Below are positions 39,844-57,064 of a DNA stretch of 64,000 nt, in pieces. The position numbers were made by a program, and so were the translations under genes. The stretch is from Ignavibacteriales bacterium (lineage in GTDB: Bacteria; Bacteroidota; Ignavibacteria; Ignavibacteriales; SURF-24), in contig JAPLFH010000009.1 of the NCBI GenBank assembly GCA_026390815.1, positions 1 through 64,000 of the forward strand. Reading direction: 5' to 3'. Within the stretch, counting starts at the first letter, position 1. Each line of letters opens with the position of its first letter. The notes below the pieces were generated by a model, which was given only the letters and a program-made list of their open reading frames with translations, had not been told where the DNA came from and ran no database searches.

Positions 39844-42800
39844 ATGGAAAGAAAAAAAGTAACTATTGATGGAAATGAAGCTGCAGCATATGTAGCGCAT
39901 CAGATCAATGAAGTTATTGCGATTTACCCGATAACACCTTCGTCACCGATGGGAGAACATTCCGATGAATGGTCTGCAAAAGGAAAAAAGAATATTTGGG
40001 GCACTGTACCTTCAGTTACAGAAATGCAAAGTGAGGGCGGCGCTTCGGGTGCTGTTCATGGTGCATTACAAAATGGAGCTTTAACTACAACATTTACCGC
40101 TTCTCAAGGCTTGCTCCTGATGATTCCCAATATGTATAAGATCGCAGGTGAGTTAACCCCAACAACATTTCATGTAACCGCTCGTTCGCTTGCTTGCCAG
40201 GCACTTTCAATTTTTGGAGATCATAGTGATGTTATGGCAACACGCCAAACAGGTTTTGCTATGTTGGCTTCTAACTCAGTTCAGGAAGTAATGGATTTTG
40301 CTTTAATCTCTCAAGCTGCTTCGCTCGAATCCAGAATTCCTTTCCTTCACTTTTTTGATGGATTCAGAACTTCGCACGAAGTTATGAAGATTGAACAACT
40401 TGATGTTGAAGATTTGAAAGCAATGATTGATGATGATCTTGTTAAGAAACATCGTGAACGTGCAATGTCCCCGGATAATCCTTTCCTTAGAGGTACTGCT
40501 CAGAATCCAGATGTTTATTTCCAGGGGAGAGAGACAGTAAATAAATTTTATGATGTTTGTCCGGAGATCGTTCAGAAAGCAATGGATAAATTTGCTAAGA
40601 TTGTTGGAAGACAATATCATTTATTCGATTATTATGGCGCTCCGGATGCAACAAGAGTAATTGTTTTGATGGGTTCCGGTGCAGAAGCTGTTGAAGAAAC
40701 TGTTGAGTATTTAACATCCAAAGGTGAAGAAAAAGTTGGTGTTGTTAAAGTAAGATTATTCAGACCATTTTCTGTAAAACACTTGATCCAAGCACTTCCA
40801 AAAACAGTTGAAAAAATTGCAGTACTTGATCGTACAAAAGAACCTGGTTCTTTAGGTGAACCACTTTATATGGACATAGTTAGTGCAATCAGTGAAGAAA
40901 TGACCAGCGAAAATCCTCCATTCAAAAAATTTCCTAAAATAATCGGTGGAAGATATGGACTCTCTTCAAAAGAATTTACGACTGCAATGGTTAAAGCTGT
41001 TTATGATGAATTGAAAAAGGACAAACCTAAAAATCATTTTACTATTGGCATTAATGATGACGTTACTTTTACAAGCTTAGATTATGATAATAACTTTACT
41101 ACTGAAACAGATGTGTTCCGTGCTTTATTCTATGGATTAGGTGCAGATGGTACAGTCGGCGCCAACAAAAACTCAATTAAAATTATTGGTGAAGAAACTG
41201 AAAATTATGCACAAGGTTATTTCGTTTACGATTCTAAGAAATCAGGCTCAGCTACAATTTCTCATTTACGTTTTGGAAAAAAACCAATAAAATCTACATA
41301 CCTAATTTCCAAAGCAAACTTTATCGGTATCCATCAATTTACATTTTTAGAGAAGTTTGATATTCTGAATAATATAATTTCTGGTGGAACATTTCTTATG
41401 AATAGCCCTTTCCCTAAAGAAGAAGTTTGGGAAAAACTACCAAGAATTTACCAGGAACAAATCATAAACAAAAAAATTAATTTCTACGTAATTGATGCTT
41501 ATGAAGTTGCAAAGAAAACCGGGATGGGTTCCAGAATAAATACCATAATGCAAACCTGTTTCTTTGCAATTTCAGGTGTTCTTCCAAAAGATGAAGCTAT
41601 TGAACAGATAAAGAAAGCAATCAAAAAAACCTACGGCGCAAAAGGGGATAATGTTGTTCGTCAGAATTTTGAAGCAGTTGATCAAACATTAGAAAATCTT
41701 TACAAGATTGATATACCGGAAAAATCCACAAGTACATTTGAACTGCCTCCGACAGTATCTGCAAATGCTCCTGATTACGTTAAGCAAGTTCTTGCAAAGA
41801 TAATGGAAGGCAATGGAGATGATGTTAAAGTAAGTGAAATGCCGGTTGATGGAACATTCCCAACTGCAACTACACGATGGGAAAAAAGAAACATCGCACT
41901 AGAAATACCAGTTTGGGATAATGAAATATGTATCCAATGCGGAAAGTGCGCAATGGTTTGCCCACACGCTTCAATTAGAATTAAAGTTTACGATGAAGCA
42001 TTGTTAAAAGATGCTCCTGCAACTTTTAAGCATATGAAAGCAAAAGGTAAAGAGTATGAAGATAACCTTGCTTATACAATTCAGGTTGCTGTAGAAGATT
42101 GCACCGGCTGCCAGCTTTGTTTTGAAGTTTGCCCTGTGAAGAATAAGAAAGAAGTAAAATTGAAAGCATTGAATATGGCTCCACAAATTCCATTACGCGA
42201 ACCTGAAAGAGCAAATTGGGATTTCTTTTACAACTTACCTGAATATGATAGAAGAAAAGTTAATCTCTCAATGATTAAATTCAATCAATTACTTCAACCA
42301 TTGTTTGAGTTTTCCGGCGCATGCACTGGTTGCGGAGAAACTCCATATGTTAAATTGGCTTCTCAATTATTTGGCGATAGAATGGTTGTTGCAAATGCTA
42401 CTGGTTGCTCTTCAATTTATGGCGGCAATTTGCCAACAACACCCTGGGCACAGAACCGTGAAGGAAAAGGACCAGCTTGGTCAAATTCATTGTTTGAAGA
42501 TAACGCTGAATTTGGAATGGGAATGCGTTTAGCAATTGATAGACACAATCATTTTGCAAAAGAATTAATAGTAAAACTTAAAGATCAGATTGGTGCTGAA
42601 CTGGTCCATGCTTTACTTAACGCTGATCAAAAAGATGAATCTGGTATATTTGAACAAAGAGAAAGAGTTGATAAATTAAAATTGATTTTAAAGAATTTAA
42701 ATACACCCGATGCACAGAACCTTTTAACAATTGCTGATTATCTTGTTAAAAAATCTGTTTGGATTATGGGTGGTGATGGCTGGGCTTACGATATTGGTTA

Positions 42801-43428
42801 CGGAGGATTAGATCATGTTATTGCATCCGGAAAGAATGTTAACATCCTAGTGCTCGATACTGAAGTCTACTCAAATACCGGTGGACAAATGTCCAAGTCA
42901 ACTGGAATGGGTGCAGTTGCCAAATTTGCCGCAGGTGGAAAAGCTACACCAAAAAAAGATTTGGCAATGATGGCAATGAATTATGGAAATGTTTATGTTG
43001 CTAAAGTGGCAATGGGTGCAAATGATGCTCAAACCATCCGCGCATTTCTTGAAGCAGAAGCGTATGATGGTCCATCGATTATAATTGCTTACAGCCATTG
43101 TATTGCACACGGTATTGATATGTCCAAAGGCTTGGACTGTCAGAAAGCTGCTGTGGATAGCGGTCACTGGTTATTATTCAGGTATAATCCCGAATTAACC
43201 AAAGAAGGTAAAAATCCATTAAAACTGGATTCTAAAGCACCAAAAATTAAATTAGAAGATTATATTTACAAAGAAACGAGATATAAGATGTTGACGAAAT
43301 CTGATCCTGAAGCAGCAAAACATTTATTAGGATTAGCTCAAAAAGAAGTTGAATCAAGATGGAAATTGTACGAAAGACTTGCAGCTAATGGAACGGAAAA
43401 ACCTGGAGTAAAACCAGAAGAAAATTAA
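39844..43428 (+). CDS. nifJ: Pyruvate:ferredoxin (flavodoxin) oxidoreductase, single-chain
   Basis: The 1194-aa chain is the homodimeric form, full length. It converts pyruvate and CoA to acetyl-CoA and CO2 and reduces ferredoxin, in the cytoplasm. The pyruvate-binding domain I starts with YPITPSSPMGEH. Two 4Fe-4S ferredoxin motifs follow (CIQCGKCAMVCP ~696, CTGCQLCFEVCP ~753). The proximal cluster and TPP domain show ACTGCGETPYVKL (~826), ATGCSSIYGG and GDGWAYDIGYGGLDH (~978) with DTEVYSNTGGQ. A GGAGAAATAAATA leader gives the ribosome binding site. A DHODH-like gene follows after 144 bp that hold a stem-loop repeat. It would feed reduced ferredoxin to partners such as the oxidoreductase encoded at 49-55 kb (inference). 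Confidence 0.96.
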   Translation: MERKKVTIDGNEAAAYVAHQINEVIAIYPITPSSPMGEHSDEWSAKGKKNIWGTVPSVTEMQSEGGASGAVHGALQNGALTTTFTASQGLLLMIPNMYKIAGELTPTTFHVTARSLACQALSIFGDHSDVMATRQTGFAMLASNSVQEVMDFALISQAASLESRIPFLHFFDGFRTSHEVMKIEQLDVEDLKAMIDDDLVKKHRERAMSPDNPFLRGTAQNPDVYFQGRETVNKFYDVCPEIVQKAMDKFAKIVGRQYHLFDYYGAPDATRVIVLMGSGAEAVEETVEYLTSKGEEKVGVVKVRLFRPFSVKHLIQALPKTVEKIAVLDRTKEPGSLGEPLYMDIVSAISEEMTSENPPFKKFPKIIGGRYGLSSKEFTTAMVKAVYDELKKDKPKNHFTIGINDDVTFTSLDYDNNFTTETDVFRALFYGLGADGTVGANKNSIKIIGEETENYAQGYFVYDSKKSGSATISHLRFGKKPIKSTYLISKANFIGIHQFTFLEKFDILNNIISGGTFLMNSPFPKEEVWEKLPRIYQEQIINKKINFYVIDAYEVAKKTGMGSRINTIMQTCFFAISGVLPKDEAIEQIKKAIKKTYGAKGDNVVRQNFEAVDQTLENLYKIDIPEKSTSTFELPPTVSANAPDYVKQVLAKIMEGNGDDVKVSEMPVDGTFPTATTRWEKRNIALEIPVWDNEICIQCGKCAMVCPHASIRIKVYDEALLKDAPATFKHMKAKGKEYEDNLAYTIQVAVEDCTGCQLCFEVCPVKNKKEVKLKALNMAPQIPLREPERANWDFFYNLPEYDRRKVNLSMIKFNQLLQPLFEFSGACTGCGETPYVKLASQLFGDRMVVANATGCSSIYGGNLPTTPWAQNREGKGPAWSNSLFEDNAEFGMGMRLAIDRHNHFAKELIVKLKDQIGAELVHALLNADQKDESGIFEQRERVDKLKLILKNLNTPDAQNLLTIADYLVKKSVWIMGGDGWAYDIGYGGLDHVIASGKNVNILVLDTEVYSNTGGQMSKSTGMGAVAKFAAGGKATPKKDLAMMAMNYGNVYVAKVAMGANDAQTIRAFLEAEAYDGPSIIIAYSHCIAHGIDMSKGLDCQKAAVDSGHWLLFRYNPELTKEGKNPLKLDSKAPKIKLEDYIYKETRYKMLTKSDPEAAKHLLGLAQKEVESRWKLYERLAANGTEKPGVKPEEN

Positions 43429-43431
43429 GAG

Positions 43432-43466
43432 CCTCTCTCCCAACCCTCTCCCCCAAAGGGAGAGGG
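43432..43466. repeat. Intergenic copy of the CCCTCTCC stem-loop repeat
   Basis: CCCTCTCCC (43444-43452) and GGGAGAGGG (43458-43466) form a perfect 9-bp stem with a 5-nt loop, just after the nifJ stop. The preceding bases (AGCCTCTCTCCC) also match the reverse strand of the copy inside the synthase gene at 10597-10662. The CTTTAA that follows could let it act as a partial terminator of nifJ. Confidence 0.65.
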
Positions 43467-43572
43467 CTTTAACTGAGGTTGAATGTAATTTTAAATGAAA
43501 ATTATTTATAAATTCAAAACCCTTTAATATTTCCTTCTTGGGATTAGAGGGTAGGCTAAAAAGGAGTATAAA

Positions 43573-44571
43573 ATGGATTTAACAACAACATATATGGGTT
43601 TGAAATTAAAGAATCCAATTGTTCCCTCAGCATCACCACTTTCAGAAACTGTAGACCAGGTAAAGGCATTGGAAGATGGAGGTGCATCAGCAGTTGTGGT
43701 TTATTCCCTCTTTGAAGAACAAATTACACACGAAGCAAATGCTCTCGATTTTTATCTTACCCAAACTGGTGAAAGCTATGCTGAAGCATTAAGCTATTTC
43801 CCAAAACCAACTGAGTTCAAATTAGGTCCGGATGAATATCTGAATCATATTGCAAAATTAAAACAAGCTGTAGACATTCCAATTATTGGAAGTTTGAATG
43901 GAGTTAGTGTTGGTGGTTGGATGAAATTCGCAAAAAATATTCAGGAAGCTGGCGCTGACGGTTTGGAATTAAATATTTATTACATTCCAACGGATGCAAA
44001 TCTTCCGGGTTCGCAGGTTGAACAGATTTATGTTAACAATTTGAAAGCAGTAAAGGAAAATATTTCTATTCCTGTTGCGGTCAAGTTAAGTCCGTATTTC
44101 TCTTCTTTAGCCAACCTTGCAAAAAAACTTGATGATGCTGGTGCTGATTCACTAGTATTGTTTAATCGTTTCTATCAGCCAGATTTTGATTTAGACAATT
44201 TAGAAGTTGTTCCTAATCTTACTTTAAGCTCTAAATGGGAATTACGTCTTCCTTTGCGCTGGATAGCAATTCTTTACGGAAAGATTAAAGCAAGTATGGC
44301 AGCTACAAGCGGCATTCAAGATTATGAAGATGTAATTAAAGTAATGATGGCTGGCGGTAATGTTGCAATGATGTGTTCGGAACTTCTTCGTCATGGTACT
44401 GGAAGAATTTCGCAAATCCTTGAAGGATTAAAGAGATGGATGGAAGAGAAAGAATATGAATCGATTGAACAGATGAAAGGAAGTATGAGTCAGAAATCTA
44501 TTACTGAACCAGCAGCGTTTGAACGTGCAAACTATATGAAAACTCTCCAGAGTTTTAAACCATTAGTTTAG
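43573..44571 (+). CDS. Dihydroorotate-dehydrogenase-like FMN protein, probably not PyrD
   Basis: 332 aa with the TIM-barrel fold of class 1 dihydroorotate dehydrogenases: [30 protein letters not shown], and the FMN-phosphate site [17 protein letters not shown]. The catalytic loop N-x-S/C-x-P-N of true PyrD reads [11 protein letters not shown], so the base residue is missing and a pyrimidine role is unlikely. AAGGAG precedes the ATG. Similar genes next to pyruvate:ferredoxin oxidoreductase are known in several phyla, suggesting a flavin-dependent accessory redox role with NifJ (inference). A good terminator follows at 44600-44629. Confidence 0.85.
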
Positions 44572-47753: not shown

Positions 47754-47817
47754 TCGCATTCTTATTTAGCTGTCATTTTAGTTGCGATGTGTTGTTATCA
47801 AACTGTAAAAAAAACTG

Positions 47818-47831
47818 ACGATGACTATCGT
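47818..47831. promoter_or_regulatory. Small palindrome, possible upstream activator site
   Basis: ACGAT-GACT-ATCGT lies about 110 bases before the -24 box of the sigma-54 promoter at 47938. That is the usual distance for an enhancer bound by an NtrC-type activator. One such activator is encoded at 57057. A single site of 14 bases is weak evidence. Confidence 0.25.
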
Positions 47832-47937
47832 ACCTTTTTGTAACGCTTTACCAAAACTGTGTAAAATCTTTTAACGATCTTCAAAAAATATCATCAAACA
47901 ATATTCAAATTATCAACTGAATTTAAGACAATTTAGT

Positions 47938-47953
47938 TGGTCCGATCCTTGCC
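47938..47953 (+). promoter_or_regulatory. Sigma-54 (-24/-12) promoter
   Basis: TGGTCCGATCCTTGCC has the invariant GG and GC with exactly ten bases between them, and the TTGC of the -12 box is perfect. The -24 box is TGGTCC against TGGCAC. It lies 46 bases before the receiver-protein start codon, so a short leader with a good AAGGAG site remains. It would make this gene, and perhaps the whole redox cluster, dependent on RpoN and an NtrC-type activator. Confidence 0.65.
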
Positions 47954-47998: not shown

Positions 47999-48994
47999 AT
48001 GCAAAAAAGAATTTTACTCGTTGATGATGAATCCGCATTAAGAAGATCCCTTTCATTAAGCCTTAACCAATCCGGTTATGATGTTGAACCGTGTGAAAAC
48101 GGAATGACAGCCTTGAATAAACTAAACCTTTACAAAAAGAATGATGTAAATCTTGATGTTGTAGTTCTGGATATCGAATTACCAGATATTAACGGAAAGA
48201 AGCTTGGTAGAATAATTAAATCAAAATACCCGGACACAACAATGTTCTATATTACCGGGTATGCAGATAAATTAGATATTAATGAGATTGAAGATCTTAA
48301 AGCAGATGGTTTATTGGAAAAACCTTTTTCTGGTGATGAACTAACAGCAGAAATCCAAAGGATCTTGGCTTCAAAACCTCAGATTGAAGAAGTAAAGAAA
48401 ACAGATAAAGATGATGTTAAAACTGTTTCCGCTTATGCACTTATTAAAATTGAAAAGCAAGCCGACTTCTTTAATCTTTATAAAAAATTATATTTTATGG
48501 AAAATGTTCTCTACTGCGATGCTACCAGAGGAGATATTGATATTTTCATGCTTCTTCAATCAGATTCACTTGAAGAATGCGAGGCAATTTTCCAGAATGT
48601 TATTAAGAATTTTGAGGGAATTAAAGAAGCCGAATTCTTACCCATTGGAACTCCTGTTCTAAATGACAACATAAGAGATATAATTAATTCAGCTGGTATT
48701 TCAATGTTCGAAGATATGCCGGGCATGAATAAAGTTCGTGATAATAAAAAATCGGTTTGTTCATATGTTCTTGTTGATGTAGATAGAGAAAAATTGGAAG
48801 ATGTTTATCCAGTGCTACGATTAACAGAGAATGTCCTTTATTGCGATTATATATCCGGGAAGTACAATTTAGTGTTGATGGTTCACGGCACTCAGTTTAG
48901 CGAGATAGATAAAATTATTGAAAATAAAATTATAGGACTTGATGGAGTTCTGAAAGTAAAAGAATATCCAATCATTAATATTTTTGAAATGTAA
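47999..48994 (+). CDS. Receiver protein with two Lrp/RAM-like ligand-binding domains
   Basis: 331 aa. Residues 1-120 are a CheY-like receiver: acidic pair Asp9-Asp10, phosphoacceptor Asp58 (VVLDIELPD), and Lys108 in EKPF. Two similar ~75-aa repeats follow (about 143-217 and 250-325), both with the pattern A/S-Y-x-L-x-x-x-x-(x)20-E-N-V-L-Y-C-D-x-x-x-G-x-x, then an L-x-G-I/V strand. The fold pattern (strand, helix, strand with G-x-Y-D-like turn, strand, helix, G-V strand) recalls the Lrp/AsnC ligand-binding (RAM) domain. There is no DNA-binding or enzymatic output. It lies behind a sigma-54 promoter and upstream of the NuoE/F-like genes, so it may sense a metabolite or redox signal for that complex (inference). 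Confidence 0.75.
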   Translation: MQKRILLVDDESALRRSLSLSLNQSGYDVEPCENGMTALNKLNLYKKNDVNLDVVVLDIELPDINGKKLGRIIKSKYPDTTMFYITGYADKLDINEIEDLKADGLLEKPFSGDELTAEIQRILASKPQIEEVKKTDKDDVKTVSAYALIKIEKQADFFNLYKKLYFMENVLYCDATRGDIDIFMLLQSDSLEECEAIFQNVIKNFEGIKEAEFLPIGTPVLNDNIRDIINSAGISMFEDMPGMNKVRDNKKSVCSYVLVDVDREKLEDVYPVLRLTENVLYCDYISGKYNLVLMVHGTQFSEIDKIIENKIIGLDGVLKVKEYPIINIFEM

Positions 48995-49124: not shown

Positions 49125-49643
49125 ATGACAGAAATAAACATCTTAGAAGAAAAAAAAGAAATTCTAAATTTTAAAATTGATCTTATCAACAAACGGCATC
49201 AGGATGGTTCACTAATCACGCTTCTCCAATCTGCACAAGATTCCTACGGTTACGTTCCCGAAAAAGTTATTCATTATATAAGCGAACTTGTTAGAATTCC
49301 TGCTTCAGAAATTTACGGCGTAATTACTTTCTATTCGCAGTTCAGATTGAAACCGATGGGAAAAAACTTGATCAGGATTTGCGAAGGAACAGCCTGCCAT
49401 GTTAATGGAGCCAAAACTGTTTTATCAGTTCTTCAGGATGAGTTAGGAATTACCGTAGGTGAAACCAGTGAAGATGGTTTATTTACGTTATTGTCAGTTG
49501 CTTGCCTGGGATGCTGTTCTTTAGCGCCAGTTATGATGGTAAATGAAACAACTTGTGGAAATCTTACTACTGAAAAAATTAAACGAACAATCAAAGAATG
49601 CAAATACAAAGAGAAATCCAGAGTAGAGTATGAAAAAAATTAA
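49125..49643 (+). CDS. NuoE/HndA-like thioredoxin-fold [2Fe-2S] subunit
   Basis: 172 aa, normal length. It carries the 24-kDa subunit pattern: an N-terminal helical part (GSLITLLQSAQDSYGYVPE), the YGVITFYSQF motif, and a [2Fe-2S] site made by Cys86, Cys91, Cys127 and Cys131 (CEGTAC and CLGCC). Such subunits pair with a NuoF-like flavoprotein in complex I, NAD-linked hydrogenases, formate dehydrogenases and bifurcating enzymes. AAGGTGA precedes the ATG. The end overlaps the next gene by 14 bp. No other complex I subunit is present, so this is a soluble complex. Confidence 0.92.
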   Translation: MTEINILEEKKEILNFKIDLINKRHQDGSLITLLQSAQDSYGYVPEKVIHYISELVRIPASEIYGVITFYSQFRLKPMGKNLIRICEGTACHVNGAKTVLSVLQDELGITVGETSEDGLFTLLSVACLGCCSLAPVMMVNETTCGNLTTEKIKRTIKECKYKEKSRVEYEKN

Positions 49644-51393
49644 AGTTGGACTTGGTACCTGCGGAATTTCTGCCGGTGGTGAACATGTTTTTAATAAAGT
49701 AAAACAGGAAATAGAAGACAAAAATCTTGATGTGGAATTAAGTGAAACCGGTTGTATGGGTATGTGTTATGAAGAAGCATTGGTAGAAATTGAGGATGAT
49801 GTAGATAAATATTTATATTCAAAAGTTTCTGTTGATAAAGTTGGCAGAATTATAAACGAACACATTATCAATAACCAGCCGGTAAATGAATGGATAATAC
49901 GAAGTAGGGATTATTCAAAAGAAGAATCATTCCTTAAAAAGCAAACCAGAATTGTTTTAAGAAACTGTGGTGAAATAAATCCTTCATCAATTGATGATTA
50001 CATTTCCAGGCAAGGCTACGATGCAATCCAAAAAGTGTTGAATCATCATTCAAAAACTGAAGTAATTGATATAATTATTAAATCGGGTTTACGTGGACGA
50101 GGCGGTGGAGGCTTTTCTACCGGATTAAAATGGAAATTAACTAACCAGGTAAACTCGGATAAGAAATACATAATCTGTAATGCCGATGAAGGAGATCCCG
50201 GAGCATTTATGGATCGAAGTGTTCTCGAAGGCGATCCACATTCGGTAATTGAAGGAATGATGATTGCCGCTTATGCAATCGGTGCCGATGAAGCGTATAT
50301 CTATGCCCGCGCTGAATATCCTCTTGCAATTAAAAGATTAAAGACCGCATTACGCCAATGTAAGGAAAAAGGTTTTTTAGGAAAAAATATTTTTGGTTCA
50401 GTTTTCAATCTTGAAGTAAAAATAAAAGAAGGAGCTGGTGCTTTTGTATGTGGTGAGGAAACTGCTTTAATGGCTTCAGTAGAAGGGAAAAGAGGTGTTC
50501 CCAAACTTCGCCCACCATTTCCATCCCAAAGCGGGTTATGGGGTAAACCAACTAACATCAACAATGTTGAAACTTACGCTAATGTACCATGGATAATTTT
50601 AAATGGCTGGGAATCATTTGCATCGTTAGGAACAGAAAAAAGCAAAGGAACAAAAGTCTTTGCCCTGGCTGGTAAAATAAAAAGAAGCGGATTAGTTGAA
50701 GTGCCAATGGGAATGACAATAAATGAAATTATCTTTGATATTGGCGGCGGAATTAAGAACAATGGAAAATTTAAAGCCGTACAAATGGGTGGTCCTTCAG
50801 GTGGATGTATTCCCGCAAGTATGGGCGATCTTAAAATCGATTATGATGAAATAACCAGGACCGGCGCGATAATGGGTTCCGGAGGTTTAATTGTTCTTGA
50901 TGATACAACCTGTATGGTTGATCTGGCAAGATACTTTCTGAATTTTACTCAAATGGAATCGTGCGGCAAATGTACATTCTGCCGTATCGGAACAAAGAGA
51001 ATGCTGGAAATATTAGAAAGAATTACCGAAGGATTTGGCAAAGAATCGGACTTAAATCTTTTGGAAAATTTAGCTTTTAATATTAAACAAGCAAGTCTGT
51101 GCGGACTCGGTCAAACAGCTCCCAACCCGGTTCTTACAACCATCAAATATTTCAGAAAGGAATATGAAGATCATATCTTTAATAAAAAATGTACTGCTCA
51201 CAATTGCGCTTCGCTTATAACCTATCAAATAGATGAAATTCTTTGCAAGGGATGCGGAGTATGCATAAAAGCTTGTCAATCAAATGCTATTACAGGAAGT
51301 AAAAAAGCAGTTCATTATATAAATGATAGTTTATGTATTAAATGTGGCAAATGTTTCGATGTCTGTCGGTTAGATGCTGTTCTAAAAAATTAA
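49630..51393 (+). CDS. NuoF/HndC-like NADH-binding FMN subunit with extra Fe-S domains
   Basis: 587 aa. Order: N-terminal thioredoxin-like [2Fe-2S] domain (GLGTCGISAGG and ETGCMGMCYEE), FMN/NADH-binding core (GRGGGGFSTGLKWKL ~156, NADEGDPGAFMDRS ~184), the N3-type [4Fe-4S] site (ESCGKCTFCRIGT ~443), and a C-terminal 2x[4Fe-4S] ferredoxin (CKGCGVCIKAC ~539 and CIKCGKCFDVC). This layout is that of the NADH-oxidising subunit of soluble hydrogenases and flavin-based bifurcating complexes, not of membrane complex I. It is sandwiched between the NuoE-like subunit and the large fusion protein and should be the NAD(H) entry or exit point of that complex. Confidence 0.93.
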   Translation: MKKIKVGLGTCGISAGGEHVFNKVKQEIEDKNLDVELSETGCMGMCYEEALVEIEDDVDKYLYSKVSVDKVGRIINEHIINNQPVNEWIIRSRDYSKEESFLKKQTRIVLRNCGEINPSSIDDYISRQGYDAIQKVLNHHSKTEVIDIIIKSGLRGRGGGGFSTGLKWKLTNQVNSDKKYIICNADEGDPGAFMDRSVLEGDPHSVIEGMMIAAYAIGADEAYIYARAEYPLAIKRLKTALRQCKEKGFLGKNIFGSVFNLEVKIKEGAGAFVCGEETALMASVEGKRGVPKLRPPFPSQSGLWGKPTNINNVETYANVPWIILNGWESFASLGTEKSKGTKVFALAGKIKRSGLVEVPMGMTINEIIFDIGGGIKNNGKFKAVQMGGPSGGCIPASMGDLKIDYDEITRTGAIMGSGGLIVLDDTTCMVDLARYFLNFTQMESCGKCTFCRIGTKRMLEILERITEGFGKESDLNLLENLAFNIKQASLCGLGQTAPNPVLTTIKYFRKEYEDHIFNKKCTAHNCASLITYQIDEILCKGCGVCIKACQSNAITGSKKAVHYINDSLCIKCGKCFDVCRLDAVLKN

Positions 51394-55177: not shown

Positions 55178-57064
55178 ATGAAACGCTTCAATAATTTTAG
55201 TTTAATTAGCGGATTAATTGAAAATGTTATCATCTTCAATTCCAATCTTTCTGTAATTTATCAAGGCAGCATAATTAAAAAATTGCTGGATGAAAATGAA
55301 ATAAATATTGAAGAATTTAATCGCACATCTATTACCAAAAACAACGAACTGGTTTTACTAAAAAATAATATTGAAAAAGTAATTACAACTAGTGAACCAC
55401 TTTCTTTCAAATTCATCAGACTAAAAGAGGATTTCCTGTTAATACCTTCCAGCAAAGGACAAAGTTTGGAAATTATTTTTGGATTAAAGAACAAGATTTA
55501 CAAGATTACAAAAATTGAACATGATCTTAAAGAACGGGTTAAGGAACTTCAATGTCTTTACAACATAAGTAAAGAACTTGAAGCAGAGAAAACGCTTCTT
55601 GAAGAGTTGGAAGATTGTGCTTTGCAAATTCAGCAAGGTTTTCAATTCCCCCAGGAAACAATTGTAAATATTGAAGTAAATAAAAACATTTACGGTAATT
55701 CTGATTGGAATCCGAAAGATGTTAACGATATGCTAGCCTGCGATATAAAATTGAAAAATGAAAAAAGGGGAGAGATAAGAATTTATTTCAAGCATAAATT
55801 CGGTTACTTGAATGAAGAACAACATTTAATAGAGGAAATTTCCGGGAAAATATCCAGGGCTATTGAGAAAGATGAAAAGGAAAAAAATCTTGAGAAGCAG
55901 CAGAAAATATTAAAAGCAAAAAATGATATTCTGTTAAAACTAACTGATGATTGCAACAGCAGCAGGCAAAAACTCAGAACTTTTTTTAAGGCAATTACGG
56001 ACAAAATTGTTGTAGTGGATAATGATTTTAATATTATTATGTCGAATAAGGATGAAATTGGTGATTCTGGAAAATGTTTTAACAAACTTTTTAATCTGCA
56101 AGAAAGATGCAAGGAATGTCCCGCAGTAAATACATTCAAAACAGCACAAAATACTTATCGCGAATGGGAGGAGACCGATAAATACACAGCTTTAAGAACA
56201 TATCCCATCTTTGGAAAAGAAGGAAATGTTGACAGGGTATTGGAAGTTTGCCGCGATATTACAACTCAGAAAAAAATGGAAGCTCAACTTCTGCAATCGT
56301 ATAAATTAGCTTCGCTTGGTAAATTGGTAGCTGGTGTTGCTCACGAAATCAATAATCCAAATACATTTATACTTGGTAATTTAAAAATTGTACAGGAATC
56401 TTTTACAGATTTATTCCCAATTTTAGATGAATATAATAAGAATCATTCTGATTTAAAAATTGCCAGATTAAACTATGATGTTTTTAAAGAGAATATTTCT
56501 GTGCTTGTAAATGATATGATAGATGGAGCAAATAGAACAAAAAAGATTGTGGCAGATCTGAGAAATTTTGCTAAAAAAGATAATGGAAGTTTAATTGACG
56601 AAATTGATTTGAATTATATTATCAAAAATAATCTTACACTTACACGAAAGCATATTAAAAAATATGCACAGTTAGATGTGGCACTAAACGAAAACATTCC
56701 TTTGTTTAAAGGTAGTATTTTTAAGCTGGAACAAGTTTTATTGAACCTGATTATGAATGCTTCAGAAGCCATTGAACATAGTGAAGGAGTAATAAAAATT
56801 GCAACAGATTTTGATGTTAGCAATAACGAAATAATTCTTATTGTTAGCGATAATGGTTGTGGAATGGATGAAAACACGGTAAAAAATATTTTTGATCCTT
56901 TCTATACAACCAAACGAAACAAGGGTGGCACTGGATTGGGTCTTTCAATTACATATGGAATTATTAAAGATCATGGTGGTAAGATTGAAGTAGAATCAAA
57001 AATAAATGAAGGGACTAAGTTCATAATCCGAATACCAGCAAAAGCAAGTGAATCGTATGTATAA
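55178..57064 (+). CDS. Soluble PAS-domain sensor histidine kinase
   Basis: 628 aa without membrane helices. An N-terminal region of unknown fold is followed by a coiled coil and a GAF-like segment (~120-240), another coiled coil, and a PAS domain (~268-372) that carries Cys300, Cys311 and Cys314 (C-x10-C-x2-C). The kinase has H-box VAGVAHEINNPN with His389, an N-box (LNLIMNASEA), DNGCGMD, FDPFYTTK, and GGTGLGLSITYG. The Cys cluster might bind metal or sense redox state (inference). It starts six bases after the fusion gene and overlaps the NtrC-type regulator, so it is the partner kinase of that regulator and probably controls the redox operon. Confidence 0.9.
   Translation: MKRFNNFSLISGLIENVIIFNSNLSVIYQGSIIKKLLDENEINIEEFNRTSITKNNELVLLKNNIEKVITTSEPLSFKFIRLKEDFLLIPSSKGQSLEIIFGLKNKIYKITKIEHDLKERVKELQCLYNISKELEAEKTLLEELEDCALQIQQGFQFPQETIVNIEVNKNIYGNSDWNPKDVNDMLACDIKLKNEKRGEIRIYFKHKFGYLNEEQHLIEEISGKISRAIEKDEKEKNLEKQQKILKAKNDILLKLTDDCNSSRQKLRTFFKAITDKIVVVDNDFNIIMSNKDEIGDSGKCFNKLFNLQERCKECPAVNTFKTAQNTYREWEETDKYTALRTYPIFGKEGNVDRVLEVCRDITTQKKMEAQLLQSYKLASLGKLVAGVAHEINNPNTFILGNLKIVQESFTDLFPILDEYNKNHSDLKIARLNYDVFKENISVLVNDMIDGANRTKKIVADLRNFAKKDNGSLIDEIDLNYIIKNNLTLTRKHIKKYAQLDVALNENIPLFKGSIFKLEQVLLNLIMNASEAIEHSEGVIKIATDFDVSNNEIILIVSDNGCGMDENTVKNIFDPFYTTKRNKGGTGLGLSITYGIIKDHGGKIEVESKINEGTKFIIRIPAKASESYV

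Follow-up and report, generated by a model that had tools for sequence, protein, structure and literature searches.

A receiver protein with two tandem RAM domains heads an operon for a predicted electron-bifurcating transhydrogenase in an Ignavibacteriales bacterium

Introduction

What might a response regulator do that has two ligand-binding-type RAM domains behind its receiver and no DNA-binding domain, and that is encoded as the first gene of an operon for a redox enzyme? This question is raised by a stretch of 64,000 nucleotides from an Ignavibacteriales bacterium (assembly GCA_026390815.1, contig JAPLFH010000009.1, positions 1 to 64,000 of the forward strand; hereafter the window), in which a protein of receiver-RAM-RAM architecture (REC-RAM-RAM, abbreviated RRR) precedes genes for a Stn-type transhydrogenase. 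What leads cells to turn on flavin-based electron bifurcation is, to our knowledge, poorly known. In the conserved cassette at this locus, a characterised type of bifurcating enzyme is surrounded by a new receiver-tandem-RAM protein, by the genes of a two-component system and by sigma-54 control. As the protein occurs naturally both with and without its receiver, the question of its role is directly testable.

Results

Domain architecture of RRR

As judged from its sequence, RRR is a receiver with an intact phosphorylation site followed by two RAM domains, and it has no DNA-binding domain (Table 1). All of the phosphorylation-site residues are there (Asp9, Asp10, Asp58, Thr86 and Lys108); among 33 RRR homologues Asp9, Asp58, Gly87 and Pro109 are invariant, as are Cys173 and Gly178 of the first RAM domain, and Asp10 and Lys108 are each retained in at least 90%. 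One further locus (L010), in which the RRR frame is broken, likely through an assembly error, was excluded from the alignments. The Pfam family PF01037 (Lrp/AsnC ligand-binding, or RAM) matched RRR in two stretches with 51.1 bits (cut-off 25, E=1.2e-13), and the two repeats, which have ENVLYCD and a Gly turn in common, aligned to each other with a local score of 99, compared with a mean of 25.4 (sd 4.6, maximum 53) for 1000 shuffles. Both PF00072 and PF01037 were matched by 33/33 full-length homologues (E<=0.001 for PF01037), whose Pfam matches, like those of RRR of the window, include no helix-turn-helix family; RRR of the window matched no DNA-binding family of any kind. A scan of NCBIfam gave only matches far under their cut-offs, and the complete architecture has no curated family of its own; the gene is single copy in its own genome. 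These results bear out an earlier sequence-only reading of the window, which had described a receiver with Asp58 and Lys108, two repeats of about 75 residues with ENVLYCD and a G-turn resembling the Lrp/AsnC ligand-binding domain, no DNA-binding part and no named family of this architecture. That reading would have been refuted by a profile search that placed the repeats in another fold; the search instead placed them with RAM.

Table 1. Positions in the window of the RRR gene, its domains, the downstream operon genes and the upstream promoter-like elements
Feature	Position	Strand	Basis
Weaker palindromic site (TGTAAAAAAAACTGACG), candidate NtrC-type enhancer	47804..47820	+	Position weight matrix score 11.4
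Palindromic site (TGTAAAATCTTTTAACG), candidate NtrC-type enhancer	47860..47876	+	Position weight matrix score 18.0
Sigma-54 -24/-12 promoter-like element (TGGTCCGATCCTTGCC)	47938..47953	+	Score 10.8, shuffle p=0.007
REC-RAM-RAM protein (RRR), 331 amino acids	47999..48994	+	Pfam matches, homologue alignment
Receiver (REC) domain, residues 5-119	48011..48355	+	PF00072 E=4.5e-21; Foldseek receiver matches
First RAM domain, residues 143-217 (AYALIKI...LYCDATRGDIDIFMLLQ)	48425..48649	+	PF01037, AlphaFold model
Second RAM domain, residues 253-326 (CSYVLVDV...LYCDYISGKYNLVLMV)	48755..48976	+	PF01037 at residues 257-321
StnA-like (NuoE/HydC) subunit	49125..49643	+	PF01257; PDB matches 9n5u_C, 9bov_C, 8oh5_A
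StnB-like (NuoF/HydB) bifurcating-core subunit	49630..51393	+	PF01512, PF10589; best PDB match 9bov_B, then 8oh5_B, 9n5u_B
StnC-like GltD/NuoG fusion, 1252 amino acids	51414..55172	+	StnC domain order; best PDB matches 9bov_A, 8oh5_C, 9n5u_A
PAS histidine kinase, His389; PAS Cys300/311/314	55178..57064	+	PF00512, PF02518
NtrC-type response regulator: REC, sigma-54 interaction AAA+, Fis helix-turn-helix	57048..58424	+	PF00072, PF00158, PF02954

The full-length AlphaFold model (mean pLDDT, the predicted local distance difference test, 76) retrieved receivers as its structural matches; as these dominated the search, a separate model of the RAM pair was made and used as the query. Modelled from 34 sequences, the pair reached a mean pLDDT of 86.8 and a pTM (predicted template-modelling score) of 0.83 and shows a strand-helix-strand-strand-helix-strand order in two copies; each domain matched stand-alone RAM and Lrp/AsnC structures with Z about 12. 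In this model the RAM pair would form an Lrp-like pseudo-dimer inside a single chain.

Over both domains together, the top VIA-align match, and the best full-length structural match, was the siroheme decarboxylase NirDL (4ch7, 4czc; Z 15.0, root-mean-square deviation 3.4 Å, 162 residues), which likewise has two Lrp-type RAM domains per chain in a relative arrangement similar to that in the model. It could be argued from this match that the RAM pair of RRR is itself an enzyme or a tetrapyrrole binder. However, identity to NirDL is only 17%, no conserved His occurs in the RRR alignment, no tetrapyrrole genes stand out beside RRR in the window, and the match is one of fold that does not take in the receiver. 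As NirDL is built from Lrp-type subunits, the match reflects the shared RAM-pair arrangement, and we consider such a role for RRR highly improbable.

The RAM homology also suggests a second alternative, namely that RRR is chiefly a sensor of an amino acid or related metabolite, its ligand state being passed on, by way of mixed RAM oligomers, to the kinase or to partners of the Lrp type. The single domains of RRR match the ligand-binding stand-alone RAM proteins 2e1a and 2zbc, and according to a review (PMC2995911) proteins of this stand-alone type bind amino acids and assemble into mixed octamers. Lrp effector pockets contain a Thr-x-Thr, for which Thr132 and Thr134 of ST1022 were taken from PDB titles; this pair is nevertheless not conserved at the matching last strand of either RRR repeat, in an alignment whose register is uncertain by one residue. 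With this Thr pair apparently absent, an amino-acid effector for the RAM pair is doubtful; the small-molecule signal suggested by the sequence-only reading, or ligand control in some other form, is possible, and a role mainly as a metabolite sensor is unlikely.

The Stn operon

RRR is the first of six genes on the plus strand, in the order RRR-StnA-StnB-StnC-HK-NtrC, where HK is a PAS histidine kinase and NtrC an NtrC-type response regulator. The three enzyme genes encode NuoE-like, NuoF-like and GltD/NuoG-fusion subunits in StnA-StnB-StnC order, with StnC homologous to that of S. ovata, and on this sequence basis they are a Stn-type transhydrogenase, StnABC, with electron-bifurcating activity predicted. 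Stn, also called the Sporomusa-type Nfn, is described in two papers (PMC7483475, PMC10482914) as a transhydrogenase that bifurcates between NADPH, NAD and ferredoxin. The operon StnABC matches the S. ovata subunits and domain order, whereas no gene for a REC-RAM-RAM protein, a sensor kinase or NtrC is reported beside stnABC in the passages considered from these papers. In the kinase, the His (His389) is conserved in 18/18 relatives and the three PAS cysteines in 15/18; the NtrC-type protein carries GAFTGA at residue 226. The enzyme complex and the histidine kinase, both proposed earlier as possible binding partners, thus belong to the same operon as RRR, and the Stn identity of the enzyme, the sigma-54 promoter, the paired palindromes and the receiver-less relatives described below go beyond that earlier reading.

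The PAS cysteines of the kinase form a Cys-x10-Cys-x2-Cys motif (residues 300-314), a possible redox or metal site. Upstream of the operon, at 39844-44571 of the window, lie pyruvate:ferredoxin oxidoreductase-like and dihydroorotate-dehydrogenase-like genes, so that ferredoxin metabolism is seemingly clustered here. At nine other loci (L007, L008, L009, L078, L079 and L098-L101) NfnA and NfnB genes stand divergently beside the RRR-Stn operon, and both kinds of bifurcating transhydrogenase adjoin.

A conserved sigma-54 promoter with paired palindromes

Two palindromes with a consensus close to TGTTAAATAATTTAACA precede a sigma-54 promoter-like element upstream of RRR. In the window they are 56 bp apart, a spacing that recurs in most relatives (mostly 52-59 bp across loci, with several at 71-73 bp). 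Both palindromes are found in 17/17 loci of the window's class, on which the matrix was trained; the independent test is provided by 23 held-out loci only, where the best palindrome exceeded 95% of the null at 18 loci and the second one did so at 15. The sigma-54 element was found 30-100 nt upstream of RRR in 36/40 loci, compared with 12/531 control open reading frames (ORFs) of the same loci (Fisher p about 4e-42), using a weight matrix that was hand-set from the known consensus and guarded by shuffles in addition to these 531 controls. For this comparison RRR starts were anchored by homology; longest-ORF starts had masked some of the elements. In the loci scanned, RRR-type genes were the only ones preceded by the composite signature of two palindromes and a sigma-54 element. 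A single palindrome was not enriched over the reversed control in the three genomes scanned (71 vs 78 in the window's genome), and no wider regulon is therefore mappable from it.

In two genomes from the phylum of a Desulfobacteraceae record, a shortened REC-RAM paralogue is also encoded (L125 8381-9313 and L132 8958-9764); the one at L125 comes before the full RRR gene, with a palindrome pair and a sigma-54 element of its own.

Relatives with and without the receiver

Genomes were searched with the RAM-RAM part, as full-length RRR used as a query returned mostly receiver domains. Conservation of RRR extends over at least three phyla. The six-gene order of the operon was found again elsewhere in the window's class, and also in the phylum of an Acidobacteriota record and that of the Desulfobacteraceae record, where the RAM-RAM part was found in 13/297 and 9/297 genomes, respectively; many of the genomes with the conserved operon are metagenome assemblies. 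Within the window's class, StnC is present in 41/391 genomes and a tandem-RAM match in 23; of the latter, 21 encode StnC as well.

At 13 loci (L072, L080, L081, L084 and L085, plus 8/8 checked in family f45) the relative of RRR consists of two RAM domains only, without a receiver, and lies directly 5' of stnA. No helix-turn-helix family was matched in the five of these proteins scanned, no kinase or activator stands beside Stn at those loci whose downstream side was read, and no sigma-54 element was found near the receiver-less tandem-RAM genes. With the downstream side readable, kinase and activator accompany 24/25 receiver-bearing loci vs 0/4 receiver-less ones (p=2e-4), in a hand-counted tally in which related loci are not independent. 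As the receiver-less relatives keep Stn and have neither kinase, activator nor sigma-54 promoter, it is Stn that the tandem-RAM module tracks by gene neighbourhood, and the two-component system that the receiver tracks. In addition, the receiver-less proteins of L185-L192 have in common, within the first RAM domain, a distinct HAVDGHYHL-like stretch that includes three His.

Proposed function of RRR

The simplest reading of a RAM pair that follows Stn and a receiver that follows the two-component genes is that RRR links both. We tentatively favour the interpretation that Stn has a tandem-RAM accessory protein, of which RRR is the phosphorylation-controlled form: a non-DNA-binding response regulator that would tune the enzyme and that probably signals to the cell when, or how intensively, to run it; buffering of phosphoryl flow to the NtrC-type protein appears less likely. 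In such a scheme the PAS kinase, perhaps sensing redox through its Cys triad, would phosphorylate the NtrC-type protein, which would bind the two palindromes and fire the operon from the region 47804-47953 in an autoregulated loop, with RRR being made first. The same kinase would also phosphorylate RRR, whose RAM pair may form the Lrp-like pseudo-dimer, and this phosphorylation would alter its oligomer state or contacts and adjust the activity or assembly of Stn, tying NADPH/NADH/ferredoxin exchange to the sensed signal. Of these steps, the action of RRR on Stn is the least certain. It is conceivable, with a lower probability, that Stn is switched directly by two-component phosphorylation, such that a response regulator, its receiver joined to a Stn-binding tandem RAM, would have the enzyme itself as its output, with the same kinase controlling transcription via sigma-54.

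Several loci weigh against a dedicated link to Stn. Two genomes (G472 and G497) keep adjacent RRR-HK-NtrC genes with the same promoter layout and yielded no StnC at E<=1e-100, so RRR can work without Stn there. A further RRR homologue (L129 4191-5696) has no Stn, kinase or activator nearby. Ten loci of a more divergent Stn clade have no tandem-RAM gene, and Stn as such therefore does not need one. The L129 homologue lies in a longer open frame, 501 amino acids as listed.

The two Stn-less genomes are better explained if RRR serves the HK-NtrC pair as a phosphate sink or as a feedback regulator, one that would drain phosphoryl groups or dock on the kinase and so damp expression, with the RAM pair gating this through oligomerisation or a ligand. 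Feedback regulators are often the first gene of an autoregulated operon, the position that RRR occupies, and the presence of the receiver tracks the kinase and activator genes. Against this, the receiver-less tandem-RAM relatives accompany Stn at loci with neither a kinase nor an activator close by, so the RAM part serves some purpose other than phosphoryl drain, and we regard a sink as possible but rather unlikely.

Relation to known proteins

RRR combines known domains in a new arrangement and in a well-defined, conserved regulatory setting. Literature searches, with subscription papers outside their coverage, found no description of receiver-RAM-RAM proteins. The nearest published parallel in architecture is the archaeal REC-NitrOD1 (PF18549; PMC5847659), in which one domain of about 70 residues, reported for Nitrosopumilus and also known in stand-alone forms, follows the receiver; RRR differs in having two tandem PF01037 domains, in being bacterial and in residing in a sigma-54 operon with Stn. 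PF18549 was not among the Pfam matches of RRR up to E=10, in a search whose HMMER filters drop weak matches. Stand-alone RAM proteins (DM1/2e1a, STS042/2zbc and TTHA0845/2djw; PMC2995911) share with RRR a RAM fold that lacks a DNA-binding domain, but theirs is a single RAM domain without a receiver, reported to form homo- or hetero-oligomers, whereas RRR holds two behind a receiver in one chain. The Lrp/AsnC transcription regulators are related to RRR by RAM sequence and fold; they possess a winged helix-turn-helix, which RRR lacks, and the effector-pocket Thr pair, which appears to be absent from RRR. The significance of RAM proteins without DNA-binding domains was called unclear in a 2010 review (PMC2995911), and RRR offers a role for them.

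Elsewhere in the window

The region 335-36560, as read from the sequence without a profile search, holds a large multi-module cluster of nonribosomal-peptide/polyketide type, mostly on the minus strand, which includes ORFs of 6049 and 3199 amino acids, thioesterase-like and acyltransferase-like genes and a phosphopantetheinyl-transferase-like ORF.
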